Assembly: GCA_900104855.1 (NCBI GenBank)
Contig: FNSS01000001.1
Coordinates: 5,084,001-5,148,000, forward strand
Source: Rhizobiales bacterium GAS188
GTDB taxonomy: Bacteria > Pseudomonadota > Alphaproteobacteria > Rhizobiales > Beijerinckiaceae
Direction: 5' to 3'
Length of the DNA: 64,000 bases
Under the pieces are notes generated by a model. That model was not told the DNA's origin and made no database searches. It was given only the letters and a program-made list of their open reading frames with translations. Position 1 is the stretch's first letter. The number at the start of each line of letters is the position of its first letter. This document shows positions 12,360 to 57,837 of this stretch, in pieces. The position numbers and the translations under genes were made by a program.

Positions 12360-12379
12360 GGATTACGCCTGTACGCTCT

Positions 12380-15376: not shown

Positions 15377-15512
15377 ATGAGATCTCCACACAGAGAGACG
15401 ACTGGTTATGCCTCACTTTCGAAAAATGGTCTTCCGTTTTTCGAGACAAACGACCTGACAACAAAGACCATGTGCAAAAGATGCGTGCCGGATCCACATG
15501 GCGGGCACATCG

Positions 15513-16289
15513 TCAGATGATCGAGCGCATGATCAAATCCGCGCCGAGCAGGAGAAGCCCGACGAAGAAGAAGAGACGGAAGGTCGCTGGATCGACCCTT
15601 CCCCGGATCCATTGGCCGATGAACATGCCGACGAGTGCAGGTGCCGTATAGAGCATTGACGCGCCTGCTCCGGTGAGATGAAAAGCGCCGTGACTTGCAA
15701 GACCCGCGGCAAGCGCGATGGTCGAGACGGTAAATGAGAGGCCGAGTGCCTGCACCAGGTCCTCCTTTTCCAGTCCGAGCGCCTGCAGATAGGGCACGGC
15801 TGGAAGCACGAAGACGCCAGTGGCACCGGTGACGAGCCCCGTCGTCGCCCCGATCACCGGAGAAAGCCAAGGTTCGAAGCGGGCGGGCACCGAGACGCGA
15901 AGCTTCGTCAGGCCCGTGATCGCGTAGGCGAGCAGTGCCGCGCCGAGCGCCGTCGTGGCCGCTCCCGTGCCGCTCCCGGTCAAAAGCCCGGCTCCGGCCC
16001 AAGTCGCGACCGAGATCGCAAGCAGCATCGGCCAGGTTCGGCGCAACAGGCGTAAACGATGCGGGCCCGCGGCGAATTGCCAGACATTGGTGACCATGGA
16101 GGGAATGATGAGCAGTGCCGCAGCCTGTGCGGGCGCCATCATGAGCCCCAATAGCCCGATCGCCACGGTCGGCAATCCCATGCCGGTGACACCTTTGACG
16201 AAGCCGGCGAGAACGAAGGTGACGGCTGTGAGGACGAGCGCCGTGTGGTCGGCGTCGATCCAGGAGATTTGCATCGAGAGGATTTGCAT
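15513..16289 (-). CDS. TauE/SafE-family sulfite/organosulfonate exporter-like permease
   Basis: 258 aa, about eight hydrophobic helices, with the family features FVLAGFVKGVTGMGLPTVAIG near the start and GATTGLVTGATGVFVLPAVPYL in the middle (the duplicated G-x-T-G-x-G half repeats). It ends FRLFFFVGLLLLGADLIMR. Family members move sulfite, sulfonates or other small anions; substrate here unknown. The start is uncertain: ATG 16289 and ATG 16274 both fall inside a 15-bp tandem repeat. Divergent from a LysR regulator 91 bp away, which probably controls it. Confidence 0.85.
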   Translation of the reverse strand: MQILSMQISWIDADHTALVLTAVTFVLAGFVKGVTGMGLPTVAIGLLGLMMAPAQAAALLIIPSMVTNVWQFAAGPHRLRLLRRTWPMLLAISVATWAGAGLLTGSGTGAATTALGAALLAYAITGLTKLRVSVPARFEPWLSPVIGATTGLVTGATGVFVLPAVPYLQALGLEKEDLVQALGLSFTVSTIALAAGLASHGAFHLTGAGASMLYTAPALVGMFIGQWIRGRVDPATFRLFFFVGLLLLGADLIMRSII

Positions 16290-16305
16290 CCAGGAGACTT
16301 GTTCT
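16261..16305. repeat. Three 15-bp tandem units at the 5' end of the TauE-like gene
   Basis: Units CAGGAGATTTGCATC, GAGAGGATTTGCATC and CAGGAGACTTGTTCT follow each other exactly. On the coding strand they give a 5-residue repeat (SWMQI/LSMQI/SW) and duplicate the possible start codon. Confidence 0.75.
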
Positions 16306-16380
16306 CCCGGGATGCGGGTGACAATCTGGAAGTCTCGGAGCCAGGATTCGGATTTGACGAAGCCAGATAGGAGCCGATGA

Positions 16381-17322
16381 ATGCGCTTCGATCTCGTCGA
16401 CCTTCGGCTGTTCCTGCATGTGGCCGAGGCCGCCAGCATCACCCACGGAGCGGCGAAAGCCAATATGGCGCTGGCCTCCGCGAGCGAGCGCATTCGCGGC
16501 ATGGAAGAGCTGCTCGGCGTGGCGCTGCTCGAGCGCGGTCGGCGAGGGGTGCGGCCGACGCCTGCCGGACGGACGCTGCTGCATCACGCGCGGGTCGTGA
16601 CGCAGCAGATCGAGCGGATGCGCGGCGAGCTCTCCGGTTATGCAGGTGGCTTGAAAGGCTATGTCCGGCTCTTGGCGAACACATCGGCGCTGAGCGAGTT
16701 CCTGCCGGAAGTGCTCAACGGCTTTCTCGCGACGTACCCGAATATCGACATCGATCTCGAGGAGCAGCCGAGCTACGACATCGTCCGTTCGGTGGCGGAT
16801 GGTTTTGCCGATGCCGGCATCGTCGCCGACATCGTCGATTTCGCGGGCCTCGAGACCTTCCCGTTCGCGACCGACAGGCTGGTCATCATCATGCCGCGCC
16901 GGCACCCCCTCGCTCGCCGCCGAAGCCTGCCCTTTCGCGAACTGCTCGACCATGATTTCGTCGGGCTCGGTGCCACGAGTGCGCTGCAGCAGCATCTGGG
17001 GCAGCATGCCGTCCAGGCCGGTCGGCCGCTCAAGCTGCGCGTGCGGCTGGGCAGCTTCGATGCCGTCTGTCGCATGGTGGAGAACGGAGTCGGTGTCGCG
17101 GTGATCCCCGAAACCGCGGCCCGCAGGAGCGGCAAGGCGATGGCGATCCGCATCGCCCGGCTGACGGATCCCTGGTCGCTGCGCCGCCTGACCGTCTGCG
17201 TCCGCAGCCTGGAGGCGTTGCCGATCCATGCGCAGCGGCTCGTCGAGCATCTGCGGCTGCAGGGGGCGAAGGCGGCTTCGGCGGCCGGTGCTGCGCCAGC
17301 TCGCCATGGCTTCGCCCGATGA
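16381..17322 (+). CDS. LysR-family transcriptional regulator
   Basis: 313 aa, standard LTTR length. The N-terminal winged helix is MRFDLVDLRLFLHVAEAASI ... ALASASERIRGMEELLGVALLERGRRGVRPTPAG; a linker helix and the LysR substrate-binding domain follow (LLANTSALSEFLPEVLNGFL, LVIIMPRRHPLA, RMVENGVGVAVIPE). AGGAG ten bases upstream supports ATG 16381. Divergent from the TauE-like exporter; LysR regulators usually activate the divergent gene in response to a small-molecule effector. Confidence 0.93.
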   Translation: MRFDLVDLRLFLHVAEAASITHGAAKANMALASASERIRGMEELLGVALLERGRRGVRPTPAGRTLLHHARVVTQQIERMRGELSGYAGGLKGYVRLLANTSALSEFLPEVLNGFLATYPNIDIDLEEQPSYDIVRSVADGFADAGIVADIVDFAGLETFPFATDRLVIIMPRRHPLARRRSLPFRELLDHDFVGLGATSALQQHLGQHAVQAGRPLKLRVRLGSFDAVCRMVENGVGVAVIPETAARRSGKAMAIRIARLTDPWSLRRLTVCVRSLEALPIHAQRLVEHLRLQGAKAASAAGAAPARHGFAR

Positions 17323-18910: not shown

Positions 18911-19311
18911 GCTTCGGCGCGCTTCGCTCCTGCGAGCAAGACCTTCGCGAAATGCCAACGGCCGGTCATCCCGGACGCGGCCGGCATGAAATGATGCGCC
19001 GCAGATCCGAGGAGCGCGTTCGGCTTTGTCCTTTGTTAACCATTTGTAAGGTAACGGAGCGTTAAGGTTGACGAAAGACTAACGCAGCGGATGACCCGAC
19101 GATGGCTCAGATGTTGGAGAGCCCGAGCCTGAGCCCGCCCCGGCAGCGCCGATGCGCTCGCCGAGGACAGCGCGTCGATCTCGGCACAGCCGGTCGGCCT
19201 TCTGGTCCTGCGCCAAGGGGGATTTGAAGCGGGCTTTGACGGCAACACAACAATTGCAAGGTGACGGGGTTCGCCGGCCTTCAACGGGCCGGAGCAGGGG
19301 CGGAGGGAATT
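18911..19311. other. Gene-free upstream region of the UDP-glucuronate decarboxylase gene
   Basis: About 400 bp. It contains AT-rich TTAA motifs at 19036-19065 and otherwise ordinary GC-rich sequence. Reading frames crossing it have no recognisable protein pattern. It probably holds the promoter of the gene starting at 19312. Confidence 0.4.
19036..19050. promoter_or_regulatory. Possible CtrA-type box (TTAACCATTTGTAAG)
   Basis: TTAACCAT followed by an imperfect second half (TAAG instead of TTAA after 7 bases), with GTTAAGG again at 19061. CtrA sites of alphaproteobacteria are TTAA-N7-TTAA. One half site is exact and the other is not, so this is a weak candidate for cell-cycle control of the downstream sugar gene. 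Confidence 0.25.
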
Positions 19312-20379
19312 TTGCACAATCGACGTGTCTTGATTACGGGTGGGGCCGGCTTCATCGGCTCGCATCTGTGCGAAGAGCTTCTGGCGCGCGGCGACGAGGT
19401 GCTGTGCGTCGATAATTTCTACACCGGCACGCGCCACAACGTGCAGCATCTCATCGCCAATCCGCGTTTCGAGCTGATGCGCCATGATGTGTGCTTTCCG
19501 CTCTATGTCGAGGTGGACGAGATCTACAATCTCGCCTGCCCGGCCTCGCCGGTGCACTACCAGCATGATCCGGTGCAGACGACCAAGACGAGCGTGCATG
19601 GCGCCATCAACATGCTCGGCCTCGCCAAACGCGTCAAAGCCAAGATCCTGCAAGCCTCGACCTCGGAAGTCTATGGCGATCCCGTCGTGCATCCGCAGCC
19701 GGAGAGCTATTGGGGCAACGTCAATCCGATCGGCCCGCGCTCCTGCTATGACGAGGGCAAACGCTGCGCCGAGACCTTGTTCTTCGATTATCGCCGCCAG
19801 CACGAGCTGCGCATCAAGGTGGCCCGCATCTTCAACACCTACGGGCCGCGCATGCATCCCAATGACGGGCGCGTCGTCTCGAACTTCATCATGCAGGCGC
19901 TGCGCGGCGAAGACATCACCATCTATGGCGACGGCAGCCAGACGCGCTCATTCTGCTATGTCGACGATCTCGTCGACGGCCTGATCCGGCTCATGGACAC
20001 GCCGGACGAGGTGACGGGCCCGATCAATCTCGGCAATCCCGGAGAGTTCACCATCCGGCAATTGGCGCAAGCCGTCATCGAGCTGACCGGATCCTCATCG
20101 CGGCTCGTGGCGCGGCCCTTGCCGCAGGACGATCCGAGGCAACGGCAGCCCAATCTCACACTGGCCAAGGAGATGCTGGGCTGGCAGCCGACCACCAAGC
20201 TGCGTGAGGGGCTCACCATGGCGATCGCGCATTTCCGCCAGGTCCTCGCAGGCAGGTCGACGCAAGAGATCGCGGCGCAAGACATCGCGGCCCAAGATAT
20301 TGCGGCTAGGGACGCTGCACAAGCAGGTTCCGGGGGACATCAGGTGATGGAGGAGCAAGTGCTCGCATTGACCAGGTGA
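19312..20379 (+). CDS. UDP-glucuronate decarboxylase (UDP-xylose synthase), SDR family
   Basis: 355 aa. The extended SDR pattern is intact: [16 protein letters not shown] (NAD binding), [40 protein letters not shown] with the catalytic Tyr-xxx-Lys, [26 protein letters not shown] and [10 protein letters not shown]. These match UXS enzymes, which convert UDP-glucuronate to UDP-xylose through a 4-keto intermediate. The start is best placed at TTG 19312, with GGAGGG five bases upstream, rather than GTG 19261. The C-terminal tail ([20 protein letters not shown]) is a 15-bp tandem repeat and probably unstructured. It lies 600 bp before the giant repeat-protein gene. Confidence 0.92.
20263..20307. 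repeat. 3 x 15-bp imperfect tandem repeat in the 3' end of the UDP-xylose synthase gene
   Basis: CAAGAGATCGCGGCG, CAAGACATCGCGGCC and CAAGATATTGCGGCT in direct succession; they encode the (QEIAA)(QDIAA)(QDIAA) tail that lies outside the SDR fold. Confidence 0.75.
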
Positions 20380-20986: not shown

Positions 20987-23900
20987 ATGACCTCGATCAT
21001 ATCTTCTCTTTCGTTGCCGCAGATTGCCGGTCTTTCAACGACCACAATGGCGCATCTGAGCACCACCGATATTGCCGCACTGTCCACGTCCCAGACGGCC
21101 GTGCTGAGCGCAACTCAGGTCAATGCGCTGAATTCGACCGATCTGCAGGCGCTGGTAACGACGCAAGTGCAGGCCCTGTCGACGAAGGCGATCAGCGGGC
21201 TCGCGCTGGCGCAGATCATGAATCTCACCACCACCGAGACCAGCTCCCTCACGACGTCGCAGATCGGCGCCCTCACCACATCCGAGATCGGGGCTCTGAC
21301 CTCGACCGAGCTGCAGGCCTGGAGCCCGGCCCAGGTGGGAGCTCTCACCACGACCCAGATCGGCGGGCTGACCACGACGGCGCTCAACAATCTCTCGACC
21401 ACGCAGGTCGGAGGGCTGACGACGACTCAGGCGCATGGCCTCACCGCGATCCAGATCAACGGCTTGGCGACCGCGAGCCTCAACGCGCTGACCGTCGGCA
21501 ACCTGACGAACACGCAGGTAGCCGGCCTGAACACGACCGCGATCGGCAACCTCTCGACCACCCAGGTCGGCGCCTTGTCGACAGGACAGATCGGCGCCCT
21601 GACACCCTCCGAGATCGGGGCTCTGACATCGACCGAGGTTCAGGCCTGGAGTGCCGCCCAGGTCGGAGCTCTGACCTCGAGCCAGATCGGCGGCCTGACG
21701 ACGACGGCGATCAGCAATCTGTCGACCACGCAGATCAGCGCGCTTTCCGGGACGCAGGTGCGCGGCCTGACGACGGCGCAGCTCAACTCCTTGTCGACGA
21801 CGGATCTGCTCGCCGTGACGGTCGCCAATCTGTCGACCTCGCAGGCGGCAGGCCTGAGCACCACCACGATCGGCAATCTGTCGACCACTCAGGTCGGCAC
21901 CTTGACGACCTCGCAGATCGGAGCCCTCACTGCGACCGAGATCGGCGCTCTGACCTCGACCGAGCTCCAAGGCTGGAGCGCGGCGCAGATCGGCGCCTTG
22001 AGCTCGACCCAGCTCGGTAACTTGACCGCGACGGCGCTTGGCAATCTGTCGACGACGCAGCTCGGCGCGCTGACGTCGACACAGGAGCATGGCTTGAAGG
22101 CTGCCCAGATGAACGGCCTGGGCGTTTCGAGCCTCGACGCCCTCAATGTCGCCAACCTCACGAACACGCAGGTGGCCGGCCTCAGCACGACCACGATCGG
22201 CAACCTCTCGACCACCCAGGTCGGCGCTTTGTCGTCGACCCAGATCGGGGCCCTCACCGCGACCGAGATCGGCGCCCTGACCTCGACCGAGGTGCAGGCC
22301 TGGAGCCCGACCCAGCTCGGCGGCCTCACTTCCGCGCAGCTTGGTGGCCTGACGACGACGGCGATCGGCAATCTGTCGACCACCCAGCTCGGCGCCCTGA
22401 CCTCGACGCAGGTGCATGGCTTCACCGCGGGGCAGTTGAACGGATTGACGGTGACGGCTCTCGATGCGCTGACCATCGGCAGCCTGACGGCGACGCAAAC
22501 CGCCGGCTTGAACACCACCGCGATCGGCAACCTCACCACCACTCAGGTCAATGCCTTGACGACCTCGCAGGTCGGGGCGTTGACGACGGCCGAGATCGGC
22601 GCCTTGACCTCGACCGAGGTGCAGGCCTGGAGCGCTTCGCAGCTCGGCGCCTTGACCTCGACCCAGATCGGCGGCTTGACGGCGACGGCCCTCGGCAATC
22701 TGTCGACCACGCAATTCGGCGCCCTGACCGCAACGCAGACGCATGGCTTGACAACGGTGCAGCTCAACGCTCTGTCGACCGCGAACCTCGACGCGGTGAG
22801 CATCGCCAATCTGACCACGACGCAGATTGGCGGCCTCAGCACCACGACCATCGGCAACCTCACGACCACCCAGGCCGGCGCCTTGACGACGACGCAGGTC
22901 AGTGCCCTGAAAGCACCTGAGATCGGTGCTCTGACCTCGACCGAACTCCAGGCCTGGAGCGCGGCGCAGGTGGGAGCTCTCACCTCGACCCAAATCGGGG
23001 GGCTGACGACGACGGCGCTCGGCAACCTCTCGACCACGCAGATCGGAGCCTTGACCTCGACGCAGGCGCATGGGCTGACGGCGACCCAGATCAACGGTCT
23101 GGGGGCTGCGAGCCTCAACGCGCTCTCGGTCCCCAATCTGACCGCGACGCAGGTGGCCGGCCTCAGCACCACGACGATCAGCACCCTGTCGACGACGCAG
23201 GTCGGCACCTTGACCACCACGCAGGTCGGCGCCCTCACAGCCCCGCAGATCGGCGCCCTGACCTCGACCGAGGTTCAGGCCTGGAGTGCCTCACAGGTCG
23301 GAGCTCTCACCTCGAACCAGATCGGCGGCCTGACGACGACGGCGATCAGCAATCTGTCGACCACGCAGATCAGCGCGCTTTCCGGGACGCAGGTGCGCGG
23401 CCTGACGACGGTGCAGCTCAACTCCTTGTCGATGACGGATCTGCTCGCCGTGACGGTCGCCAATCTGTCGACCACCCAGGCGGCTGGCCTGAGCACCACC
23501 ACGATCAGCAATCTGTCGACCACACAGGTCGGCAGCTTGACGACCTCGCAGATCGGAGCCCTCACGGCAACCGAGATCGGCGCTCTGACCTCGACCGAGC
23601 TCCAGGGCTGGAGCGCGGCGCAGATCGGCGCCCTGAGCTCGTCGCAGCTCGGTAACTTGACCGCGACGGCGCTCGGCAATCTGTCGACGACGCAGCTCGG
23701 CGCCCTGACCTCGACGCAGGAGCATGGCTTGAAGGCGACCCAGATGAACGGCCTGGGCGTCTCGAGCCTCGACGCCCTCAACGTCGCCAACCTCACGAAC
23801 ACGCAGGTGGCCGGCCTCAGCACGACCACGATCGGCAACCTGTCGACCACCCAGGTCGGTGCCTTGTCGGCGACCCAGATCGGGGCCCTCACTTCACCCG

Positions 23901-26134
23901 AGATCGGCGCCCTGACCTCGACCGAGTTGCAGGCCTGGAGCCCGACCCAGCTCGGCGGCCTGACCTCCGCGCAGATTGGTGGCCTGACGACGACGACGCT
24001 CGGCAATCTGTCGACCACCCAGATCGGCGCCCTGACCACGACGCAGACGCATGGCCTCACGGCAACCCAGATCAACGGCCTGACCGCGGCGAGCCTCGAC
24101 GCCGTCACCGTGACCAATCTGACCGCGACGCAGGTCGCCGGCCTCAGCACCACTACGGTCGGCAATCTGACGACGACGCAGGTCAATGCCTTGACCACGT
24201 CGCAGATCGGCGCCCTGACCGCTCCGCAGATCGGCGCGCTCAGCTCGACCGAGCTGCAGGCCTGGAGCGCCTCGCAGGTCGGCGCTCTGACCGCGACCCA
24301 GATCGGCGGCTTGACGACGACCGCGATCGGCAACCTGTCGACGACGCAGATCGGAGCCCTCAGCTCGACACAGGTGCGCGGTCTCAACGCCACGCAGCTC
24401 AACTCCCTGTCGGTGACGGACCTCCTGGCGGTGACGGTCGCCAACCTGTCGACGACGCAGGCCGCGAGCCTGAGCACCACCACGATCGGCCATCTGTCGA
24501 CCACTCAGGTCGGCACCTTGACCACCTCACAGATCGCGGCCCTCAGCGCGCCTGAGATCGGGGCTCTCACTTCCACTGAGCTCCAGGCTTGGAGCCCGGC
24601 GCAGGTCGGCGCAATGACGTCCGCACAGCTTGGTGGGCTGACGACGACGGCGATCGGCAATCTGTCGACGACCCAGCTCGGCGCCCTGACCTCGACGCAG
24701 ATGCATGGCCTCGGAGCGGCGCAGCTCAACGGCCTGACGGCGACCAGTCTCGACGCGCTGACGATCGGCAATCTGAGCGCGACGCAGGTGTCGGGCCTGA
24801 ACACGACGGCGGTCGGCAATCTGTCGACCACACAGGTGAATGCCCTCTCGACGTCGCAGGTGAGTGCCCTGACGCCGGCCGAGATCGGGGCCCTGACCTC
24901 GACCGAGCTGCAGGCCTGGAGCGCGGCCCAGGTGGGAGCTCTCACCTCGAGCCAGATCGGCGGCCTGACGACGACGGCGATCGGCAACCTCTCGACCACC
25001 CAGATCGGGGCGCTGTCGGCAACCCAGGTGCATGGCCTGACGACGACGCAGCTCAACTCCATGTCGCCGACCGACCTGATCGCGGTCGCCATCACCAGCC
25101 TGACGACCTCGCAGGCGTCCGGCTTGAGCACCACAACGGTCGGCAATCTGTCGACGACGCAAGTCAACGCCCTGTCGACCACGCAGATCGGCGCCCTGAC
25201 CTCGTCCGAGATCGGCGCCCTGACCTCGACCGAGCTGCAGGCCTGGAGCGGAGCGCAGGTCGGCGCCTTGACCTCGACGCAGATCGGCAAACTGACGACC
25301 ACGGCGATCGGCAATCTGTCGACCACCCAGATCAGTGCTCTGAGCACGACCCAGGTGCGCGGCATGACCACCCAGCAGCTCAACGCCCTGTCGGCGACCG
25401 ATCTGCTCGCCATAACGGTCGCCAATCTGTCGACCTCGCAGGCGGCGGGCTTGAGCACCACGACGATCGGCACTCTGTCGACGACGCAGGTCGGCGCCCT
25501 GACCACCTCGCAGATCGGCGCCTTGACGACGGCCGAGATCGGAGCCTTGACCTCGACCGAAGTCCAGGCCTGGAGCGCGTCGCAGGTCGGCGCTCTGAGC
25601 TCGGCGCAGCTCGGCGGCTTGACGTCGACCGCGCTTGGCAACCTGTCGACGACCCAGATCGGAGCGCTGACCTCGACCCAGGAGCATGGCTTGACCTCGA
25701 GCCAGCTGAACGCTCTGTCGGTGGCCAATCTCAACGCGCTGACGATCGGCAGCCTGACGACGACGCAAGTCGGCGGGCTGAACTCGACGGCGGTCGGCAA
25801 TCTGACGACGACGCAGGTCGGTGCCTTGACGACAGCGCAGGTCGGAGCCCTGTCGGCGTCCGGGGTCGCCGCCTTGACCTCGACCGAGCTGACGTCCTGG
25901 AGCGCGGCCCAGGTCGGCGCCATGACCTCGGCTCAGGTCGCGGCCTTGACGACGACGAACTTCTCGGCTTTCACCAGCACGACCGGCATACCGGCACTCA
26001 GCACCTCGGCGATCGCGGGGCTGAGCACCGCCGATATCAGCGCCTTGACCTCGACCCAGGGCCACGCCTTCACGACCCCGCAGATCCAAGCGATGTCGAC
26101 AGCGCAGGTCAACGCGCTTATTGCGCTCGGCTAA
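20987..26134 (+). CDS. Giant octapeptide-repeat protein, Ser/Thr-rich solenoid
   Basis: 1715 aa, almost wholly built from 8-residue units of consensus L-[ST]-[ST]-[ST]-[QE]-[IVL]-x-[AGN], for example LTTSQIGA. Units are grouped into a 109-residue super-repeat (twelve octads plus one 13-residue unit ending VTVAN or LTIGS). The only tryptophans seen, in QAWS/QGWS/TSWS, are W112, W221 ... W1638, exactly 109 residues apart. No Cys or Tyr was seen, and Lys and Arg are rare. Each octad has a hydrophobic residue, then Ser/Thr, then Gln/Glu three residues later and a hydrophobic residue after that. This is the pattern of a helix capping box with hydrophobic staple, so stacked short helices are likely (inference). 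No signal peptide, membrane helix or barrel is visible. ATG 20987 has GGAG eight bases upstream. The gene between UXS and an OGT-type glycosyltransferase suggests a glycosylated structural or surface protein. Function unknown. Confidence 0.9.
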   Translation: MTSIISSLSLPQIAGLSTTTMAHLSTTDIAALSTSQTAVLSATQVNALNSTDLQALVTTQVQALSTKAISGLALAQIMNLTTTETSSLTTSQIGALTTSEIGALTSTELQAWSPAQVGALTTTQIGGLTTTALNNLSTTQVGGLTTTQAHGLTAIQINGLATASLNALTVGNLTNTQVAGLNTTAIGNLSTTQVGALSTGQIGALTPSEIGALTSTEVQAWSAAQVGALTSSQIGGLTTTAISNLSTTQISALSGTQVRGLTTAQLNSLSTTDLLAVTVANLSTSQAAGLSTTTIGNLSTTQVGTLTTSQIGALTATEIGALTSTELQGWSAAQIGALSSTQLGNLTATALGNLSTTQLGALTSTQEHGLKAAQMNGLGVSSLDALNVANLTNTQVAGLSTTTIGNLSTTQVGALSSTQIGALTATEIGALTSTEVQAWSPTQLGGLTSAQLGGLTTTAIGNLSTTQLGALTSTQVHGFTAGQLNGLTVTALDALTIGSLTATQTAGLNTTAIGNLTTTQVNALTTSQVGALTTAEIGALTSTEVQAWSASQLGALTSTQIGGLTATALGNLSTTQFGALTATQTHGLTTVQLNALSTANLDAVSIANLTTTQIGGLSTTTIGNLTTTQAGALTTTQVSALKAPEIGALTSTELQAWSAAQVGALTSTQIGGLTTTALGNLSTTQIGALTSTQAHGLTATQINGLGAASLNALSVPNLTATQVAGLSTTTISTLSTTQVGTLTTTQVGALTAPQIGALTSTEVQAWSASQVGALTSNQIGGLTTTAISNLSTTQISALSGTQVRGLTTVQLNSLSMTDLLAVTVANLSTTQAAGLSTTTISNLSTTQVGSLTTSQIGALTATEIGALTSTELQGWSAAQIGALSSSQLGNLTATALGNLSTTQLGALTSTQEHGLKATQMNGLGVSSLDALNVANLTNTQVAGLSTTTIGNLSTTQVGALSATQIGALTSPEIGALTSTELQAWSPTQLGGLTSAQIGGLTTTTLGNLSTTQIGALTTTQTHGLTATQINGLTAASLDAVTVTNLTATQVAGLSTTTVGNLTTTQVNALTTSQIGALTAPQIGALSSTELQAWSASQVGALTATQIGGLTTTAIGNLSTTQIGALSSTQVRGLNATQLNSLSVTDLLAVTVANLSTTQAASLSTTTIGHLSTTQVGTLTTSQIAALSAPEIGALTSTELQAWSPAQVGAMTSAQLGGLTTTAIGNLSTTQLGALTSTQMHGLGAAQLNGLTATSLDALTIGNLSATQVSGLNTTAVGNLSTTQVNALSTSQVSALTPAEIGALTSTELQAWSAAQVGALTSSQIGGLTTTAIGNLSTTQIGALSATQVHGLTTTQLNSMSPTDLIAVAITSLTTSQASGLSTTTVGNLSTTQVNALSTTQIGALTSSEIGALTSTELQAWSGAQVGALTSTQIGKLTTTAIGNLSTTQISALSTTQVRGMTTQQLNALSATDLLAITVANLSTSQAAGLSTTTIGTLSTTQVGALTTSQIGALTTAEIGALTSTEVQAWSASQVGALSSAQLGGLTSTALGNLSTTQIGALTSTQEHGLTSSQLNALSVANLNALTIGSLTTTQVGGLNSTAVGNLTTTQVGALTTAQVGALSASGVAALTSTELTSWSAAQVGAMTSAQVAALTTTNFSAFTSTTGIPALSTSAIAGLSTADISALTSTQGHAFTTPQIQAMSTAQVNALIALG
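21314..25900 (+). repeat. Perfectly phased 327-bp super-repeat array inside the repeat-protein gene
   Basis: TGG codons begin at 21320, 21647, 21974, 22301, 22628, 22955, 23282, 23609, 23936, 24263, 24590, 24917, 25244, 25571 and 25898: fifteen marks, every interval exactly 327 bp. Within each period lie 24-bp subunits. Units beginning at 21647 and 21974 are nearly copied at 23282 and 23609. Confidence 0.97.
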
Positions 26135-26152
26135 GCGAGCCCAAGATCAATA

Positions 26153-26181
26153 CCTTCGGCGGCTCAGGAAACCGCCGAAGG
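26153..26181 (+). terminator. Hairpin after the repeat-protein gene
   Basis: CCTTCGGCGG and CCGCCGAAGG form perfect 10-bp arms around a 9-base loop, 19 bp after the stop codon. No long T-run follows (CTGTTGTG), so it may be a weak terminator or an mRNA 3'-end stabiliser that reduces read-through into the glycosyltransferase gene. Confidence 0.6.
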
Positions 26182-26224
26182 CTGTTGTGCGTAGAGTATC
26201 CTAGATTGGCATTCCCACGGTCGA

Positions 26225-28306
26225 ATGTCGCGTTCGTGTCATCAATGCCAGACGGACTCATGTATGCACAACCACCCAGGCGAGCTGGAAATCGCCTCGA
26301 AGATCTACGCCGAATCGATCAAGCAAGCCTTTCTGCGGCAGTCATCGATAGCCGAGCTCTTTTCCAGCGCCGCGCGGCTGGCGGCGCTCCAGCAAAAGCA
26401 GCTGGTGGCGGATCTCTACAAGGCCTGGATCGCCTATAACGCCGACGACAGGCTCATCTACGCCGTCTATTTCAACTACGGAACGGCTCTCGCGGATGCC
26501 GGCGATCGCCCCGGCGCCATGAACGCCTTGCGCGAATGCATCAGGCTGAAGCCGGATTTTTATCCGCCCTATATCAATCTCGGCCGCATCCTCGAGGATA
26601 GCGGCCAGATTGGGCCTGCGGTCGCGCAATGGCTCGATCTCATCAACCATGCATCCGCCGTCAACGGCGATTCCGTCTCGCATAAATGCAACGCCCTGAT
26701 CCAGATGGGGCGCGTCCTCGAAAGCATCCACAACGACACGGCCGCCGAGGATGCGCTGAAGCAATGCCTCGACATCAACCCGACCCAGATCGAGGTCATC
26801 CAGCATTGGATCGCGCTGCGGCAGCGGCAGTGCAAATGGCCGGTGATCACCGAATGGGAGCGCGTCAAGCGTGAGAATCTGGCGGCGGGGATCTCGCCCC
26901 TGTCGCTCGCCAATCTCTCGGACGATCCGATGCTGCAGCTGGCGCGGGCGCATCACTACAACAAGCAATCGATCGGCATGCCGAAGGGCGGTCGACGGCC
27001 TTATGCCCATTTGCCGGCGGCGCGGCACGAGACGCGGCGGCTGCGCATCGGCTACGTCTCGTCCGATCTGCGCGAGCACGCCGTCGGCTTCGCGATGACC
27101 GACGTCATGGAGCTGCATGATCGCGAGCATTTCGAAGTCTTCGCATACTATTGTGGAATAGAGCGCACCGATTCGACACAAGAGCGAATCAAGGCCGGCG
27201 TCGACCATTGGGTCGACATCATCGGCCTCGGCGACGAGCAGGCAGCGGCCCGGATCGCGGAGGACAAGATCGATATCCTGGTCGACCTGAACGGCTACAC
27301 CAAGTTCGCGCGCACCAAGGTCTTCGCCTTGCGGCCGGCTCCGATCGCGGTGAACTGGTTTGGGTTCCCGGGGACGATGGGGAGCCCCTATCATCACTAT
27401 ATCGTCGCGGATCCGCACATCATCCCGCAAGAGCTGGAGATCTACTACTCCGAGAAGGTGCTGCGCCTGCCATGCTATCAGCCGAACGACCGCAAGAGGG
27501 TCGTCGCCTCGAGGCGGCCCTCGCGCCAGGACGAGAAGCTGCCTGAGAACGCCTTCGTCTATTGCTGCCTCAACGGGATGCAGAAGCTCACTGCGCTGAC
27601 CTTCGGGCGCTGGATGACCATCCTCAAGGCCGTCCCGGACAGCGTGCTTTGGCTGCTCTCGGGGACCACTGACACCAATGAGCGGGTACGCCAGATCACT
27701 ACACAACATGGCGTCGCGCCGGAGCGGCTGATCTTTGCCGAGAAGCGGGCCAATCCGGAACATCTCGCACGCTACGCGCTGGCGGACCTGTTCCTGGACA
27801 ACCTGCCTTACGGAGCCCATACCACGGCGGCGGACGCGATGTGGATGGGTGTGCCCATCTTGACGCTGACGGGACGAAGCTTCGCGTCCCGCGTCTGTTC
27901 CAGCCTGGTGCGCGCGGCCGGCATCGCCGAAATGGTCTGCGCGACGCCTGACGCCTATGTGGCGCGCGCCATCGAGCTCGGCCGGGACCGGAAGAGCCTC
28001 GCTGCCATCAAGGACAAGCTAGTGGCCGGGCGCGATTCCTGCCTGCTCTTCGACACGCCGCTCGTGGTGCGCGGCCTCGAAGACCTGTATCGGCAGATGT
28101 GGGCGGATTTCCAGGGCGGGCGCCTGCCGGTCCCCGATCTCAGCAATCTCGAGATCTACAACGAGATCGGCCTCGAGCTCGATCTCGAGAACACCGAATT
28201 GCTTTCGGACGATGCCTATCGCGCGCTCTACCGCGACAGGCTCGCGGACCGGCACAGCATCTACCCCATCCGGCCGGACGGCCGGTTGTGGCAGACGACG
28301 AGCTGA
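26225..28306 (+). CDS. O-linked N-acetylglucosamine transferase (OGT/SPINDLY) family protein, TPR + GT41
   Basis: 693 aa. The N-terminal part has TPR-like helical repeats (about residues 80-220, e.g. YFNYGTALADAGDRPGAMNA and YINLGRILEDSGQIGPAVAQ). The C-terminal two-lobed GT41 domain shows RIGYVSSDLREHAVGF, ILVDLNGYT, NWFGFPGTMGSPYHHYIVAD, FLDNLPYGAHTTAADAMWMG and VPILTLTGRSFASRVCSSLV, all family signatures including the donor-binding region. Such enzymes add a sugar (GlcNAc or others) to Ser/Thr in cytoplasmic proteins. The first 16 residues contain a Cys/His cluster (CHQCQTDSCMHNH). ATG 26264 is an alternative start; neither has a good ribosome site. It directly follows the giant Ser/Thr-rich repeat gene, its probable substrate (inference). 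Confidence 0.9.
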   Translation: MSRSCHQCQTDSCMHNHPGELEIASKIYAESIKQAFLRQSSIAELFSSAARLAALQQKQLVADLYKAWIAYNADDRLIYAVYFNYGTALADAGDRPGAMNALRECIRLKPDFYPPYINLGRILEDSGQIGPAVAQWLDLINHASAVNGDSVSHKCNALIQMGRVLESIHNDTAAEDALKQCLDINPTQIEVIQHWIALRQRQCKWPVITEWERVKRENLAAGISPLSLANLSDDPMLQLARAHHYNKQSIGMPKGGRRPYAHLPAARHETRRLRIGYVSSDLREHAVGFAMTDVMELHDREHFEVFAYYCGIERTDSTQERIKAGVDHWVDIIGLGDEQAAARIAEDKIDILVDLNGYTKFARTKVFALRPAPIAVNWFGFPGTMGSPYHHYIVADPHIIPQELEIYYSEKVLRLPCYQPNDRKRVVASRRPSRQDEKLPENAFVYCCLNGMQKLTALTFGRWMTILKAVPDSVLWLLSGTTDTNERVRQITTQHGVAPERLIFAEKRANPEHLARYALADLFLDNLPYGAHTTAADAMWMGVPILTLTGRSFASRVCSSLVRAAGIAEMVCATPDAYVARAIELGRDRKSLAAIKDKLVAGRDSCLLFDTPLVVRGLEDLYRQMWADFQGGRLPVPDLSNLEIYNEIGLELDLENTELLSDDAYRALYRDRLADRHSIYPIRPDGRLWQTTS

Positions 28307-28367: not shown

Positions 28368-29243
28368 TCAATCGGGTGCAGCGCCAGCTTGCGCGATTAT
28401 CGACAGGTATTGCTCGACCGAACCAGGCGGGGCCACCTTCCTCTCGATCAGGCGATGAATGCAATTTGCCGCCAAGTCGTAGGATGCGTAACAGTGATGA
28501 GAAATCAGCGCTAGCTGCTTCAGTTGCTCTGCCGACATCCTCTCCGGCTGCGTAAAATCGCGAACGTAAACGATATCCGCTTCGAGGAGCTGGTTCATGG
28601 AGGCAAAAGGCCTGGCGGAATCATGAATCGGCAAGATCATGCGCTTGTTCAAATTGACGAACATATGCGGAATGAAACCGAACCCTCGCAAGGCCAGGTC
28701 TATCTCTCCGAATACCGGTTGCCTCAGATAGAGAGGGACAAATGAGACTTCGGTCTGCAGCGCCACGGCATTCGATAATCGCGACCTTCCGTTGAGAAAC
28801 ACCGAAAGCTCCTGACCCTGCACGTCAATCTTGAGCAGGTCGATCTCTCTGATTTCGTCAATGCTATCCAGCGTTCGCGTTTCGACGGGTATCTCCTGGA
28901 TGACCTGTCCATAATCGAGGAAGCCGGGAAACAGGCTCAAGCTGCGTGGATCGGGACTGAGGAGGCTTGACATCCCACGAGCCCTGCAGACCTTCAGGAT
29001 GCCGACCGAGCCATCTCCGACCGCATAGGGAAGATAGGCCTCGAGATCACCCTTCTTTTGATTGAGCTCGGCATGTGCATCGGGCTGCGGTTCAAAGCCA
29101 ACAACGGTGCATAGGCGCTTCGCGAGCATTTGCCGGTAAGGCGGTTCGCCATCCGAGCTCAGCGGGTTGGCGCCAATGTCGACGATCGCCGTCAAGCGTT
29201 CGGGGCGCAGCATCTCAACAAGCGGATCGGACGCGGCGATCAT
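28368..29243 (-). CDS. FkbM-family methyltransferase
   Basis: 291 aa from ATG 29243, which has AGGA five bases upstream; the frame stays open to a TTG at 29318. SAM-binding features are AIVDIGANPLSSDG (motif I), VVGFEPQPDAHAELN (motif II) and LLKIDVQGQELSVFLNG (the FkbM DVQG/EG motif). FkbM enzymes O-methylate sugars and polyketides and are common in polysaccharide and glycoprotein loci. It is convergent with the OGT-type gene (61 bp between stops), consistent with methylating a glycan made by this locus (inference). Confidence 0.87.
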   Translation of the reverse strand: MIAASDPLVEMLRPERLTAIVDIGANPLSSDGEPPYRQMLAKRLCTVVGFEPQPDAHAELNQKKGDLEAYLPYAVGDGSVGILKVCRARGMSSLLSPDPRSLSLFPGFLDYGQVIQEIPVETRTLDSIDEIREIDLLKIDVQGQELSVFLNGRSRLSNAVALQTEVSFVPLYLRQPVFGEIDLALRGFGFIPHMFVNLNKRMILPIHDSARPFASMNQLLEADIVYVRDFTQPERMSAEQLKQLALISHHCYASYDLAANCIHRLIERKVAPPGSVEQYLSIIAQAGAAPD

Positions 29244-29382
29244 GATATCCTGCACCTCACAAACGAACTCCAAGCTGTCGCCCATTTGCGTGGCGATCGG
29301 GATGAGAATGAGCGACAATCAGGTTGCGAATCTGCGGTCGCGTCGAGAAAGATGATTGTCGTTGCGCGGCAGGAAGGCAAGC

Positions 29383-49480: not shown

Positions 49481-52400
49481 TCACCAGAAGACTTTGAGCT
49501 CGGCGTTGCCGGTGACCCCGCGGCGATGATTGCCGCCGATATTGGTCACATAGCCCGCCGAAGCCTGGAAAAGCAGGTTCCTGTCGAGCTGCACCACCAT
49601 CCCGCCATTGGTCTCGAGGGAGGTCGCGCCGAGATTGGTGATGATCGGCGTCGTGGCGAAGATCGCCGTGTCCCTGCCCGAAAAGGTCCTCCACAGATTG
49701 GCGGTGATGAAGGGCTTGATCACATGTCCGTTGATCTCGAAAAGATCGGAGAGCCGCAGACCCACGCGGCCGGAGACGGTGTTCGGCGTCGAATAGGAAA
49801 GGGTCGAGAACTGGTCCTGGTTGTGCCCGAGCGACAGATGCTGCCACACGAGCTGCGCCTGCGGCTCCAGCACGAACTGCGATACGATGCGCACCGGATA
49901 GCCGCCCTCGAGGGAGGCGGTGACGATATTGCCGCTCCCGGTCGTCTCGATCGGACGGTAGGAGCGGGCGTCGGTGTCCAGCGCCGTGTCCATGAGCGTG
50001 GCATCGATATGCCAGCCTGACGGCCCGGTATGGGTCCAATAGGTGCCGATGCTGAGGCCGTCGACAGCGAGCCGCCCGGTGAAGGCGCGCAATAGTCCGA
50101 GCGCTGATCCATGGACGTCGCCATTCTCGCGCGCATAGCCCATGAAGGCGCCGAACCTGTCGCGTTGTCCGTTGAGCCAATCGATCCTGTAGAGGTCGAG
50201 CCCAAACTGCAGTCCATACACGCGTCCGTTGAATTCCGGATTGACGGTGCCGGTCCAGCGCTGGCTATGCGATTGGCCGATGAAACGTCCCCAGACCGCG
50301 GATGGCCCGTTTGCCGCGGGCGTCGTCTGATAGGCAATGCCGCCGGCGGCCTTGCCCTGCGCGGGAGCGCCGGGCTGCACCGCGGTCCCGGCAGGTGCGT
50401 TGGCGATCGGTGCGGCCCCGGCTGGCGTCGGCGCGACCGGTGCAGCCCCGGCTGGTACCGGCTCGACCGGACCGCCGAACAACGGGGCACCACCAAAGGC
50501 CGCGTCCGGCGGTTCGGGATTGCGGATATCGGCCGTGCCGAGCATCGACAGGGCGACGTCGCGGGCGACCGCCGGCACCGCGACATCAATCGCGATCTCC
50601 GGACGGAAGAAGGGGATTTCAGGCTCACCGGGTATGGGAGCCGGAATGAAGGGCGTTCCGGGCGCCGGTGTCGGCGTACCGCTGCTCGTGGGCGTCGGTG
50701 CGGTCGTGCGCAGATACCAATTATCGGCGGTGCCGGGCGTCTCGCCGCCATGATAGAGGAAATACTCGTATGGGCCGGCGCCGGCCGGTGCCGAGAGCGT
50801 GAAGGCCCCGGGCGCGGTCGTGGCGCCATTGATGGCCTGGATGACCTGGATCCCATTCGCCTGAGTGATGGCGCCGACACCCCCGACATTGGTGACATTC
50901 AGGCCCGATGAACCGGTCGCGCTGCCATGGCTGATGATCAGCTGATCGGAGGGCGAGCCGTCGCCTCCAAGCTGCGTGTTGAGCGCGACCGTGCCGTTCT
51001 GCCCGATATAATTTCCGGCAATCGTCAACGCGTTGCCGGGTGTGGTGCCGATGCCGCCGATCTGCGCGAGGCCGGCGTTCGTCACATTGCCGTTGATGGT
51101 GAAATTGCCAGTCGACCCGCCTGACAGGGCCGCAAGCGTATTGCCGACCCCGATCGTGCCGGCATTGGTCACGTTTCCGGTGACGCTGCCATAGCCGCCG
51201 AGCGTGCCCCCGGCCGCGACCTGGATAGGCCCGCCTCCCGACAAGACCGCGCCCGGATTATTGGCATCGCCGATCGCCAGCGTGCCGGCGTTGATCGTGG
51301 TGCCTCCCGTATAGGTGTTGTTGCCGTTGAGGATCGTGGTGCCGCTGCCGATCTGCGAGACGCTGCCGGCGCCCGAAATAACGTCGGAATAGGTTGCGAC
51401 ATCCGAGCGATCGAACAGCAGCGAGCCGTTATTGGTGATGTTGCCGAGGATGCTGCCGGTCGTCCCGCCATTGCCGAGTTGGAGCGTGCTACCCGAGTCG
51501 ATCGTCTTCGGCCCACCGGAATCGATGGCTCCGGTGGCGATGACGTTCGACCCGTTCGTCAAGCTCACGGCGCCGGTGCCGGTGACGGTGTTCACGAAGG
51601 TGCCCGTTGCGGCATTGAAGATCAGCGCGCCGTTATTCGCGATCGCGCCGCTGCCGAGGCCACCACCATCATTCAGCATGGCGGTCGCGCCGGACGCAAT
51701 CGCGGTCGAAGCTGTCAAACCCGGATTGGCGCCGCTCACGTTGAGCGTGCCGCCGGCGAGGTTGAGCGATCCACCGCCGGTCAGGCTGCCCGGAGCCGTC
51801 GTCCCGCCATTGGCGATGTTGAGACTGCCGCCATTGATGTTCACGGTCGAGCCCGGATGCGTCGTCAGCGCACCCGTACCGAGAGCCGCGCTGGTCGAGA
51901 GCGTGCCTAGAGCAAGATCGAGAGTCCCGCCGATATCGAGCGCGCCAATGGTCTGCGTCGTGCCGTTGAGGATCGCGCTGGTGCCCGGATTGACGATCAG
52001 ATTGGAGCTCTGCCCAAGTGCGCCGTTGGCGCCGAGAGCCAGGGTGCCGGTGCCGACGGTCGTCGTGCCGGTATAGGTATTGGTGGAATTGTTGAGCCTG
52101 ATCGTGTTGGTGGCGTCGATGACGAGGTTGCCGGGCCCGATGATCCGCGCATGCAGCTCAGAGCCTGCCGGGGTGCCGTCATCGCCGGACAGCGTCAATG
52201 TCTGCCCCGTCTGCAAATTAAGCTGCGTCAGGCCATAGGAGACGTAAAGGCCGTTGTTGGCGGGACCGCTCGTCAGGCCATAGCCATAAGAGCCAACCGC
52301 AACGGTGTTGCCGCCCTGGGCGATGGGGACATTAAGACTCGCCGGAACGGGCGCCCCATTCTGGTCGAGCAGTGTCAGCCCGCCGGCGCTGCCGCTGACG

Positions 52401-54490
52401 GAAGTGGCGCTGACCAGCCGGTCGAGCACGCCGTCATCCTGCTGCAGCAGCGTCGAGGGGCTGCCCGGCCCGGCAAAGCTCGAAGGCGGCGTCGCCGGAT
52501 TGGCAATGATGACCTGCACCTGGCCGCTCGTGAGCGTGAGCGCGCCCGTGCTGATATTGGCGGGCGACACGGTATCGGACGGCACGGTCGTGGCGAATAT
52601 GGCCTTGCCGCCATTCATGGTCAGGCCGCCGATCGCCTGGGTGCCGGCGCCGACCGTGGTCGTATTGTTGGCATCGAGCTGCAGCGTCGCCGAAGTCAGC
52701 GCCGCCGTGTTGGTGCCGGCCAGCGCAAACTTGCCGTCCGCAAGCTCGGCAGTTCCCGCAAATGCCGTTCCGGCGCCTGCACCAAAGGCGAATGTATCGG
52801 CCGCGGCGCCCATCTTGGCGAACACCGTGCCTGTCCCAGTGAACGCATTGTTCAGGACGAACCCCGCGCCGGCCGTCGGCAGAAGCGACAACCTGGTGCC
52901 GCCATTGACCTGGATGCCGCCTGGCCCTGCGGCTGCGGGATTGGTCAGTTGCAGAGTGCCGCCGGCGACCGTGGTGCCGCCGCCATAGCTGTTGGCGGCG
53001 GTGAGGGTCAGCGTGCCGGCGCCCATCTTGGTCAGGGCTCCCGCGCCACCGATGCTTTGTGCGATCGTCGAGGTGAAGCCCTGGGTGTCGAAGGTGCCGC
53101 CGGGCGTGTTGAGCGTGATCGCGCGTGTTGGGGCCAAGTTGAAGCTGGTATTGAAGCGCAAGGTGCCGCCATTGAAGGTCAGGCCGCCGCTCGCCGCGCC
53201 AAGCGCTGTGTCGGCACCGACCGCGACGACGCCCTGGTTGAAGTTCGTGCCGCCCGAATAGGTGTTGAGGCCGGTCAGGGTCAGGGCGCCGGCGCTTGTC
53301 TTGGTCACGGAACCGGCGCCGCTGATGATGCCCGCATAGGTTCCATCGCTCGGCTGAGCGAACAGGACGAGGCCATTATCGGTGATGGTCGGGGGAAAAC
53401 TACCCGAAAACCCCTGCAACGTACCGGCCGGATCGACGATGACGCTACCGGTGTATTGGGAGTTGTTGCCGGTCAAGATCAATGTGCCTTGCTGCACCTC
53501 GGCAACCGTCACGCCGACCACCGAGCCTGTCAGCGTCCAGGTGCCGGTGTCCGTTTTGGTCAAGGTCTGGAAATTCTTGATCTGCCCCGGCAGGGAGTCG
53601 CTTCCGGTACCGTTCAGAAAGATGGAGTTGGTTCCGCCGCCGCCATCGAAATTACCGGTGATCGTCGAGCCGGTGAAGAGACGCAGAACGTCGTTGCCGC
53701 CGCCAAAGTTGAGGTTGCCGATCACCGTGCCTCGATTGGTGAAGTCGACGGCAGCGGCGCCAAAGCCGCCTATGACATTCCCCGACGCCTGAGATGTCTG
53801 GATGATGCCAGTCGCATTATTGACGACCGTATTGAGTCCGATGGTGTTCTGGAAGAAGATCGCGGCCGCGTTGGTCGCCCTGATGGTTCCGTTGTTGACG
53901 ATCAAGTTCCCCGAGCCCTCGGGGTTGATCGCCTCGGAGTTTCCGGCAGTGCCCAAGGACAGGATCTGAGCGCCCGCAGCGACCGTCAGTGTGCTGTTGT
54001 TGCGAAACTCGACCGTGTCGCCGCCTGTGCCGTACAGCCCTCCCGTGCCGGTCGACGTCGCTTGGACGATCGCTCCGGGGCCAAGCGTGATGTTGGCGCC
54101 GTCGGCGAGGCTGATCGCGTTCGCGTTCCCCACCACGATCTGTGAGTTCGCGAGCAGATTGAGGACCGAATTGGCCGGCGTCGCGGGACCGATGCCGACG
54201 GTTGCGGTGAATAGCCCAGCCGTATCGCAGGTCGTGATCAGCACCAGGGTGACGCAATTTGCGAAGACTGGTGTCGAGAGGAATTGGCCAGCGATTGGGA
54301 AAAGGAGCAAAGCCGCAAGGAATTCACGTGTTCGTGATCGTCCCACTCGACCCATTCGATGGCGGCAGGCCATGGCCGACTTCACACCGGCGGCCGGAAC
54401 GCACACCTCGCTTGACCGAGATAAGCCCCCCGAAAACCGAATTGCATCAAGTCCAAGACCAAGCCAGCGCGTCGATATGCACAGCGGCAT
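49481..54490 (-). CDS. Autotransporter (type Va secretion) with PATR passenger repeats
   Basis: 1669 aa. GAGGAG eight bases before ATG 54490 supports this long form; it gives about 54 residues ahead of the hydrophobic core EFLAALLLFPIAGQFLSTPV, an extended signal region as in many autotransporters. The passenger (about 78-1280) is a Gly/Thr/Asn-rich beta-helix with PATR units such as GAGTLTLTAANSYGGGTTVA, GSGTTILNGNNTYTGGTTIN and TNTYTGTTTVGTGTLALG. A Pro/Ala-rich linker with PAGAAPVAP-type repeats follows, then a C-terminal barrel (about 1395-1669: WGRFIGQSHSQRWTG ... GNAELKVFW) ending in an aromatic residue. Few cysteines. It would be displayed at or released from the cell surface; an adhesin is the usual role (inference). 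Confidence 0.92.
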   Translation of the reverse strand: MPLCISTRWLGLGLDAIRFSGGLSRSSEVCVPAAGVKSAMACRHRMGRVGRSRTREFLAALLLFPIAGQFLSTPVFANCVTLVLITTCDTAGLFTATVGIGPATPANSVLNLLANSQIVVGNANAISLADGANITLGPGAIVQATSTGTGGLYGTGGDTVEFRNNSTLTVAAGAQILSLGTAGNSEAINPEGSGNLIVNNGTIRATNAAAIFFQNTIGLNTVVNNATGIIQTSQASGNVIGGFGAAAVDFTNRGTVIGNLNFGGGNDVLRLFTGSTITGNFDGGGGTNSIFLNGTGSDSLPGQIKNFQTLTKTDTGTWTLTGSVVGVTVAEVQQGTLILTGNNSQYTGSVIVDPAGTLQGFSGSFPPTITDNGLVLFAQPSDGTYAGIISGAGSVTKTSAGALTLTGLNTYSGGTNFNQGVVAVGADTALGAASGGLTFNGGTLRFNTSFNLAPTRAITLNTPGGTFDTQGFTSTIAQSIGGAGALTKMGAGTLTLTAANSYGGGTTVAGGTLQLTNPAAAGPGGIQVNGGTRLSLLPTAGAGFVLNNAFTGTGTVFAKMGAAADTFAFGAGAGTAFAGTAELADGKFALAGTNTAALTSATLQLDANNTTTVGAGTQAIGGLTMNGGKAIFATTVPSDTVSPANISTGALTLTSGQVQVIIANPATPPSSFAGPGSPSTLLQQDDGVLDRLVSATSVSGSAGGLTLLDQNGAPVPASLNVPIAQGGNTVAVGSYGYGLTSGPANNGLYVSYGLTQLNLQTGQTLTLSGDDGTPAGSELHARIIGPGNLVIDATNTIRLNNSTNTYTGTTTVGTGTLALGANGALGQSSNLIVNPGTSAILNGTTQTIGALDIGGTLDLALGTLSTSAALGTGALTTHPGSTVNINGGSLNIANGGTTAPGSLTGGGSLNLAGGTLNVSGANPGLTASTAIASGATAMLNDGGGLGSGAIANNGALIFNAATGTFVNTVTGTGAVSLTNGSNVIATGAIDSGGPKTIDSGSTLQLGNGGTTGSILGNITNNGSLLFDRSDVATYSDVISGAGSVSQIGSGTTILNGNNTYTGGTTINAGTLAIGDANNPGAVLSGGGPIQVAAGGTLGGYGSVTGNVTNAGTIGVGNTLAALSGGSTGNFTINGNVTNAGLAQIGGIGTTPGNALTIAGNYIGQNGTVALNTQLGGDGSPSDQLIISHGSATGSSGLNVTNVGGVGAITQANGIQVIQAINGATTAPGAFTLSAPAGAGPYEYFLYHGGETPGTADNWYLRTTAPTPTSSGTPTPAPGTPFIPAPIPGEPEIPFFRPEIAIDVAVPAVARDVALSMLGTADIRNPEPPDAAFGGAPLFGGPVEPVPAGAAPVAPTPAGAAPIANAPAGTAVQPGAPAQGKAAGGIAYQTTPAANGPSAVWGRFIGQSHSQRWTGTVNPEFNGRVYGLQFGLDLYRIDWLNGQRDRFGAFMGYARENGDVHGSALGLLRAFTGRLAVDGLSIGTYWTHTGPSGWHIDATLMDTALDTDARSYRPIETTGSGNIVTASLEGGYPVRIVSQFVLEPQAQLVWQHLSLGHNQDQFSTLSYSTPNTVSGRVGLRLSDLFEINGHVIKPFITANLWRTFSGRDTAIFATTPIITNLGATSLETNGGMVVQLDRNLLFQASAGYVTNIGGNHRRGVTGNAELKVFW

Positions 54491-57836: not shown

Positions 57837-57837
57837 C

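Follow-up and report, generated by a model that had tools for sequence, protein, structure and literature searches.

What is the function of a gene that encodes one 109-residue unit again and again without an insertion or deletion between copies? The gene lies in a 64,000-nucleotide stretch of the genome of Rhizobiales bacterium GAS188 (GenBank assembly GCA_900104855.1, contig FNSS01000001.1, positions 5,084,001 to 5,148,000), here called the window, in which an open reading frame (ORF) at 20987..26134 on the plus strand encodes 1715 residues. We find that this protein belongs to the ALTTAQ repeat family, that its octapeptides are predicted to form short helices, that its relatives share a pitch readable in their sequences, and that, in one clade of GT41 glycosyltransferases (OGT type), nearly every gene has an ALTTAQ gene beside it. 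We consider it fairly probable that the window protein is a screw-fold protein glycosylated by the GT41 enzyme encoded next to it.

The regularity of the gene is extreme. The protein contains exactly 15 Trp residues, each spaced 109 residues from the next, and Tandem Repeats Finder reports 14.4 copies of a 327-bp period with 0% indels, 75% matches and a score of 4135. The initial annotation, which placed 15 TGG codons at 21320 + 327n without indels, was exact on this point. Its division of each period into 12 octads and one 13-residue element is equivalent in composition to ours, the 13-mer being an octad plus a pentad (consensus TVANL), but the unit then has 14 elements (13 octads and the pentad) rather than 13. 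On the plus strand, N-terminal octads (residues 1-104, 20987..21298) precede 14 complete units (21299..25876) with Trp at unit position 8. A degenerate 15th unit holding the last Trp then begins at 25877 and passes into C-terminal octads that end at 26134. Ser and Thr make up 33% of the protein. Mean pairwise DNA identity among the complete units is 73-81%, varying with their distance, and the mean nonsynonymous and synonymous differences per site (pN 0.17, pS 0.41) give a mean pN/pS of 0.40; given this divergence and ratio, the units look like old copies maintained by purifying selection. Units 2-3 and 7-8 form a near-identical two-unit block (94-95% DNA identity) that looks like the product of one later copying.

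The view that the protein belongs to no named family did not hold. Pfam model PF20080 (ALTTAQ repeat) matches it over 53 stretches at E 5.5e-258 and 832.8 bits (cut-off 26.4), and the octad consensus L-[ST]-x-x-Q-[IV]-x-A is common to model and protein. The model covers 38 positions, and its output includes neither the 109-residue Trp unit nor the 3.42-octad period nor the GT41 partner considered here. A profile search for a well-described family of known function thus yielded a family name; in the open-access literature searched, which lacks most subscription journals, we found no paper containing the words ALTTAQ, PF20080 or HeliScrew. Two further Pfam matches above cut-off, Gp5_trimer_C (132 bits) and DUF4351 (62 bits), were set aside as probable cross-matches: the sequence is repetitive and rich in Leu, Ser and Thr, and over the same region ALTTAQ reaches 833 bits. 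Kinship with leucine-rich repeats was rejected, the matches being weak and ascribed to Leu periodicity, as was kinship with TAL effectors, for which a match appears solely with the solved protein HeliScrew4 (E 0.00055, below its cut-off).

HeliScrew4 itself (PDB 9zem, 120 residues) is the sole match of the window protein below E 0.001 in a phmmer search of PDB sequences (E 7.2e-11). A profile built from the units finds it at E 2.4e-15, and PF20080 in turn recognises its 98 aligned residues (E 1.3e-32, 111.6 bits). The window protein is related in sequence to this solved chain. From its name and length, 9zem is presumably the crystallised protein of a 2025 preprint (PMC12822642), the accessible part of which describes an "alpha-helical screw" protein obtained from random repeats and reports its fold as new; if so, HeliScrew4 is non-natural. 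AlphaFold, run on three window units (327 residues) with an alignment of 11 other trios from the same protein, gave a predicted local distance difference test score (pLDDT) of 93.5 and a predicted template modelling score of 0.82. The model contains 39 helices of four or more residues, about one five-residue helix per octad. A stretch of one relative (L050) folded as a single sequence shows the same pattern, with a best pLDDT of 85.4 and five models spanning 40 to 85. The regular solenoid with Trp at a fixed place that the initial annotation had proposed is therefore borne out in structure prediction, with short helices throughout. Foldseek, run against a PDB copy ending April 2026, returned no close match, and 9zem was not among the 50 matches listed. 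The best natural neighbour among those 50 was mesothelin (8cx3, E 9.4e-4; 7ued, E 1.1e-3), at template modelling scores of about 0.2-0.3.

Looking across the family, the super-periods of ALTTAQ proteins appear to follow one rule. For 53 of 59 proteins from GT41-linked loci the strongest super-period is 56, 80, 112, 136, 192 or 248 residues (7, 10, 14, 17, 24 or 31 octads), or double one of the values 136 and 192. Of the remaining six, one is the window protein at 327 (3 x 109), a pair lies at 218 (2 x 109), and three have 360, 16 and 32. The common values approach whole numbers of turns at about 3.42 octads per turn (7/2, 10/3, 17/5, 24/7, 31/9). Averaged over 52 proteins without recent duplication, drawn from 86 unique ones, the autocorrelation spectrum peaks at 3.41-3.43 octads with a power of 268, compared with at most 10.2 in 20 octad-shuffled controls and up to 26 and 43 when blocks of two or four octads were shuffled (10 repeats each). 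The estimate is 3.419 octads, with a bootstrap range over proteins of 3.413-3.425 (kinship uncorrected) and peaks of 3.407-3.425 in random halves of the set; analysed one by one, the 86 proteins include 43 whose best period falls within 3.3-3.6 octads, and a further group, largely of family f240, favours about 2 octads. The 3.42-octad signal stands out most at octad position 5 and is almost nil at the core Leu (45 proteins). We infer that 3.42 octads (27.4 residues) correspond to one turn of a screw, and therefore that the 109-residue unit would make 3.98, or about four, turns. The suggestion that 13 elements make one turn does not fit this periodicity.

The Trp unit itself is kept in a few other organisms. 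As the initial annotation had anticipated, there are homologues with the same period and Trp: proteins of three genomes from the same order but another family (L219, L226 and L227, in G598, G482 and G620) have 13, 7 and 7 Trp, with every spacing 109. Compared with the window's consensus unit, theirs agree at 60, 66 and 62 of 109 residues, and a GT41 gene lies 19 bp away in all three. The unit is absent from the other 82 of the 86 unique ALTTAQ proteins compared. The window's own genome encodes a second ALTTAQ protein of 1454 residues (L038, C1:2711490-2715854, at 9491-13855 on the minus strand of its locus), with a super-period of 105 residues (by eye 12 octads plus units of five and four) and no Trp. 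Its N- and C-terminal octads are similar to those of the window protein, whose N-terminal start by eye also resembles that of L044, and no GT41 gene was found within the stretch examined, which extends 9.5 kb and 6 kb to its two sides. One family, f240 (L234, L235, L242, L243 and L250-L254, in genomes G853, G883 and G892), has several ALTTAQ genes per genome, with frames of up to 5692 residues, mostly of two-octad period and mostly without a nearby GT41; L234 and L243 contain many Trp spaced 16 residues apart. Overall the distribution of PF20080 is patchy: 7 of 60 relatives at E 0.001 and, at E 1e-8, 6 of 385 genomes of the class, 16 of 397 of the order and 16 of 398 of the phylum, these samples overlapping and including the window genome.

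The best functional clue comes from the adjacent glycosylation genes, on which the initial annotation was silent. Beginning 90 bp past the ALTTAQ stop codon, a gene at 26225..28306 (+) encodes a 693-residue protein with TPR repeats, matched by TPR models, and an OGT-type GT41 domain (PF13844, E 1.3e-84). Its best characterised matches include human OGT (7yea, E 2.6e-84) and XcOGT (2jlb, E 4.4e-78). The His, Lys and HTT...D loop positions, which we take to be catalytic, align with those of OGT, and H285, K454, T534 and D537 are invariant among five aligned GT41s. An N-glycosyltransferase of HMW1C type was rejected (NCBIfam NF049992, 21.2 bits against a cut-off of 1000). The genome has two GT41 genes in 9.09 Mb, so the chance of an ALTTAQ-GT41 adjacency by accident is small.

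That adjacency recurs across genomes. Genome contigs were scanned with five aligned GT41s as the query; of 583 relatives the best 80 were carried forward, and the counts therefore describe the closest GT41s, not all. Divided by identity, 52 are close (47-65%; L047-L099 minus L096) and 28 distant. ALTTAQ ORFs were called by octad pattern, and all four that were checked against Pfam match (two from L050, one each from L065 and L074). An ALTTAQ ORF lies within 5 kb of 46 close GT41 genes and is lacking at three, with three left undecided by a contig end; the corresponding counts for distant loci are 2, 18 and 8. On a quick maximum-likelihood tree of 107 GT41s, linked and unlinked labels change 11 times against a shuffled mean of 23.5, a count that none of 500 shuffles reached. 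The clade of 53 that includes the window enzyme (support 89) contains 50 linked members, one unlinked and two undecided; linked GT41s also occur on other branches (L044, L232x, L122, L040/L042). The ALTTAQ gene is upstream on the same strand for 52 of 66 linked GT41s, at a median gap of 95 bp. Starting instead from ALTTAQ, a GT41 gene lies no more than 5 kb from 24 of 46 ORFs (window included), with two of the GT41 matches weak or partial (G706, G883); among the 22 unlinked ORFs, 12 belong to f240 and seven are extra copies in genomes that also have a linked one. This second sample left out G032, G033, G901, G908 and G914, and G199, G659 and G868 gave no ORF above the octad filter; some genomes are probably in both sets, so that the two tests are not independent. 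In the literature searched, no title or abstract start ties GT41 to octad repeats. Ten loci (L076, L077, L079, L085, L086, L090, L091, L097, L159, L161) have two consecutive, different GT41 genes, several of them adjoining ALTTAQ and the type I secretion genes HlyB/HlyD; perhaps two sugars are added in succession.

Taken together, these patterns suggest the following mechanism. Each octad L-[ST]-x-x-Q-[ILV]-A-[AG] would form one short capped helix, and successive helices would wind around an axis with about 3.42 octads per turn into a long alpha-helical screw, the 109-residue unit returning its conserved Trp to nearly the same face. The ALTTAQ protein would be the dedicated substrate of the adjacent GT41, whose TPR part may bind the nascent or folded repeats while its catalytic part adds a sugar, in the cytoplasm, to the Ser/Thr that lie exposed at positions 3 and 4 of the octad. 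For binding by a TPR part there is a precedent in Caulobacter FlmG, a TPR glycosyltransferase whose TPR part, according to the accessible text of PMC7591256, binds flagellin, which is modified in the cytoplasm. An upstream UDP-glucuronate decarboxylase (UDP-xylose synthase, UXS) could supply UDP-xylose as donor, and an FkbM-type enzyme may methylate the attached sugar. The glycosylated rod might then leave the cell, in some lineages through an adjacent type I system, to serve as a cell-surface or matrix fibre. In its broadest form, the proposal would make the screw an old natural fold of fixed pitch (24 octads in seven turns) and the backbone of a proteoglycan-like fibre in several bacterial phyla, decorated by GT41 with xylose or methylated xylose from a co-encoded UXS and exported by type I systems where these are present; so extended, we regard it as speculative and, as a whole, unlikely.

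The putative acceptor positions differ between linked and unlinked proteins. Shared ancestry, together with GT41s elsewhere in the genome, confounds a comparison of all proteins (65 linked, 6 unlinked), and we therefore used within-genome pairs. In five of the six genomes compared, positions 3 and 4 of the octad hold more Ser/Thr in the linked proteins than in the unlinked paralogue, with summed fractions, linked against unlinked, of 1.29/0.97 (G000), 0.92/0.70 (G031), 1.72/0.52 (G233) and 0.83/0.59 (G1084), and of 0.98 and 0.89 against 0.37 in G007, where the first linked protein is separated from the GT41 by the second, at a distance of 11 kb. In the sixth, G260, one linked protein ties with its unlinked paralogue (1.22) and one is higher (1.39).

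Several points count against glycosylation of the screw as proposed. Position 2 is also slightly richer in Ser/Thr in the linked paralogue in five of the six genomes. Many f240 proteins have Ser/Thr fractions of 0.3-0.8 at positions 3 and 4 and mostly no nearby GT41, so that Ser/Thr there is not diagnostic of glycosylation. Three of the five aligned GT41s have Gly in place of the His of the OGT HTT loop, a residue that the window enzyme possesses. OGT-type enzymes usually modify extended peptides, not folded solenoids. The pitch, for its part, is derived from sequence periodicity, and the f240 set has its strongest period at about 2.1 octads.

An alternative concerns the identity of the sugar. 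The UXS gene (19261..20379, +, listed at 372 residues) stops 607 bp short of the repeat gene. The enzyme matches human UXS1 (4gll) at E 5.2e-126, against 6.6e-42 for the best other enzyme kind, and its TSEVYG and YDEGKR residues align with those of UXS1, where TSEVYG and YxxxK presumably form the catalytic motif. UXS relatives (E below 1e-80) occur at 12 of 52 close GT41 loci and at none of the 28 distant ones. However, the transferred sugar has an even chance of being GlcNAc or another hexose, with UXS serving another polymer: the best matches of known activity are GlcNAc transferases, no UXS was seen at 40 of the 52 close loci (some cut by a contig end), and the genome has three further UXS copies, at 77, 74 (one internal stop) and 73% identity. 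The position of OGT C917, which we take to be the Cys of the N-acetyl pocket, is Tyr in the window enzyme. This exchange would narrow the pocket and so speak against GlcNAc, yet the Tyr is present in all five aligned GT41s and is therefore not specific to loci with UXS. With UXS directly upstream in the window pulling the other way, we hold xylose to be a tentative assignment, rather more doubtful than probable. The FkbM-type methyltransferase, a convergent gene at 28368..29318 (-) encoding 316 residues (PF05050, E 2.3e-19; TIGR01444, 51.9 bits against 37.7), is a candidate sugar methylase. Among the close loci, L066 and L079 likewise have FkbM-like genes; L068, L071, L073, L078, L088, L093 and L098 carry a longer FkbM form, and L050 and L054 methyltransferases of another type.

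Where the modified protein would act is a second matter. GT41 might modify the ALTTAQ protein inside the cell, as a regulatory or scaffold modification without export. Consistent with this, no signal peptide is evident by eye at the N-terminus, RTX nonapeptide repeats are not among the four Pfam matches of the protein, and no HlyB/HlyD genes adjoin the pair in the window or in 44 of the 52 close loci (some cut by a contig end); none were found anywhere in the window, and HlyB-like genes adjoin seven of the 52. On the other side, HlyB/HlyD adjoin the ALTTAQ-GT41 pair in loci of different families (L048, L050, L054, L076, L079, L090, L122, L159, L161), and surface glycoproteins are commonly giant and rich in Ser/Thr. 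A HlyB gene of any type (E 1e-100) is present in 16 of 26 ALTTAQ genomes and missing from 10, compared with 7 of 26 comparison genomes, or 6 of 25 leaving out G045, which is itself an ALTTAQ genome. A type I system dedicated to the window protein was considered and not retained, HlyB of the L050 type at 60% identity or more being found in 5 of the 26 ALTTAQ genomes. We judge a purely intracellular role to be possible but unlikely, and export of the ALTTAQ protein to be close to an even question, leaning slightly to the negative. Separately, nine of the 28 distant GT41s, mostly from beta-proteobacteria, adjoin HlyB, HlyD and an outer-membrane factor (L101, L102, L107, L108, L110, L111, L113, L120, L124). 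Judging by gene order, this is another GT41-secretion pairing; a filter for Ser/Thr-rich repeat ORFs in these nine loci found one in L111 only.

A third interpretation would make ALTTAQ a scaffold, adaptor or activator for a GT41 that modifies other proteins, such as flagellin. FlmG offers a model: its TPR part is joined to a glycosyltransferase, and the flagellins that it modifies are still in the cytoplasm (PMC7591256, as far as its accessible text goes). We consider this improbable: the window clade is tied to ALTTAQ in 50 of 51 decided members, none of the ten annotated clusters among the 24 recurrent neighbour clusters listed is flagellin, and the linked ALTTAQ proteins are mostly the Ser/Thr-richer paralogues. 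We give equally little credence to the idea that the 109-residue regularity is a mere trace of tandem amplification, devoid of structural meaning, since the differing super-periods of family members and the copied block of units 2-3 and 7-8 are outweighed by the divergence of the units (about 75% DNA identity) at pN/pS 0.40, the retention of Trp and 109 residues in three genomes of another family, and the fall of family super-periods on one pitch.

Other features of the window bear less directly on the pair. Between the ALTTAQ stop and the GT41 start lies a hairpin with a 10-bp perfect core (26152..26182, no strand assigned, fold z -2.2); a repeat search with a 12-bp minimum did not list it. 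The tail, which contains T, lies on the minus strand and faces the ALTTAQ gene. It might conceivably set the expression ratio of the two genes. ALTTAQ-GT41 gaps (n = 35) have a mean fold z of -2.1, against -1.4 for control gaps (n = 56; one-sided p 0.02), with z below -2 in 16 of 35 and 21 of 56, a comparison that speaks only faintly for a conserved device, which we did not adopt. Farther away, a 1669-residue autotransporter (49481..54490, -; Autotransporter beta-domain, AC_1, PATR) is unrelated to the repeat protein, and two long ORFs are without a Pfam match: 15406..17307 (-), 633 residues, which is Arg/His-rich and reads like the antisense of another gene, and 57703..59304 (+), 533 residues.

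Much of the background to this locus appears to be established: the repeat family has a name, GT41-substrate pairs exist in other forms, and the fold has seemingly been solved from a non-natural protein. As far as our searches of the open-access literature show, the new elements are the ALTTAQ-GT41 pair, its link to UXS, a shared pitch of 3.42 octads and the conservation of the Trp unit of 109 residues. The window GT41 resembles human OGT and XcOGT in joining TPR repeats to a GT41 domain with aligned catalytic positions, and differs from them in having one neighbouring repeat protein as its probable dedicated substrate. It shares its architecture of TPR and glycosyltransferase with Caulobacter FlmG, whose substrate is flagellin and whose sugar is, in the accessible account, pseudaminic acid. 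HMW1C and HMW1, in the part of the record available, are likewise a GT41 dedicated to a large secreted protein (an adhesin), but their linkage is to N and their secretion is of the two-partner kind.

To our knowledge, bacterial OGT-type GT41s are mostly without clear physiological substrates. One GT41 clade now has a candidate substrate adjoining 50 of its 51 decided members, and for this clade the substrate question can therefore be reduced to the co-expression of two genes. The ALTTAQ proteins would be natural examples of the screw fold that run to thousands of residues, and their pitch, legible in the sequence, can be compared with a crystal structure. If the glycosylation is true, the locus would add a further dedicated pair of glycosyltransferase and fibre to HMW1C-HMW1 and FlmG-flagellin, perhaps with xylose as its sugar. 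That ALTTAQ is paired with GT41 across dozens of bacterial genomes suggests a class of sugar-coated bacterial proteins that has so far gone unrecognised.

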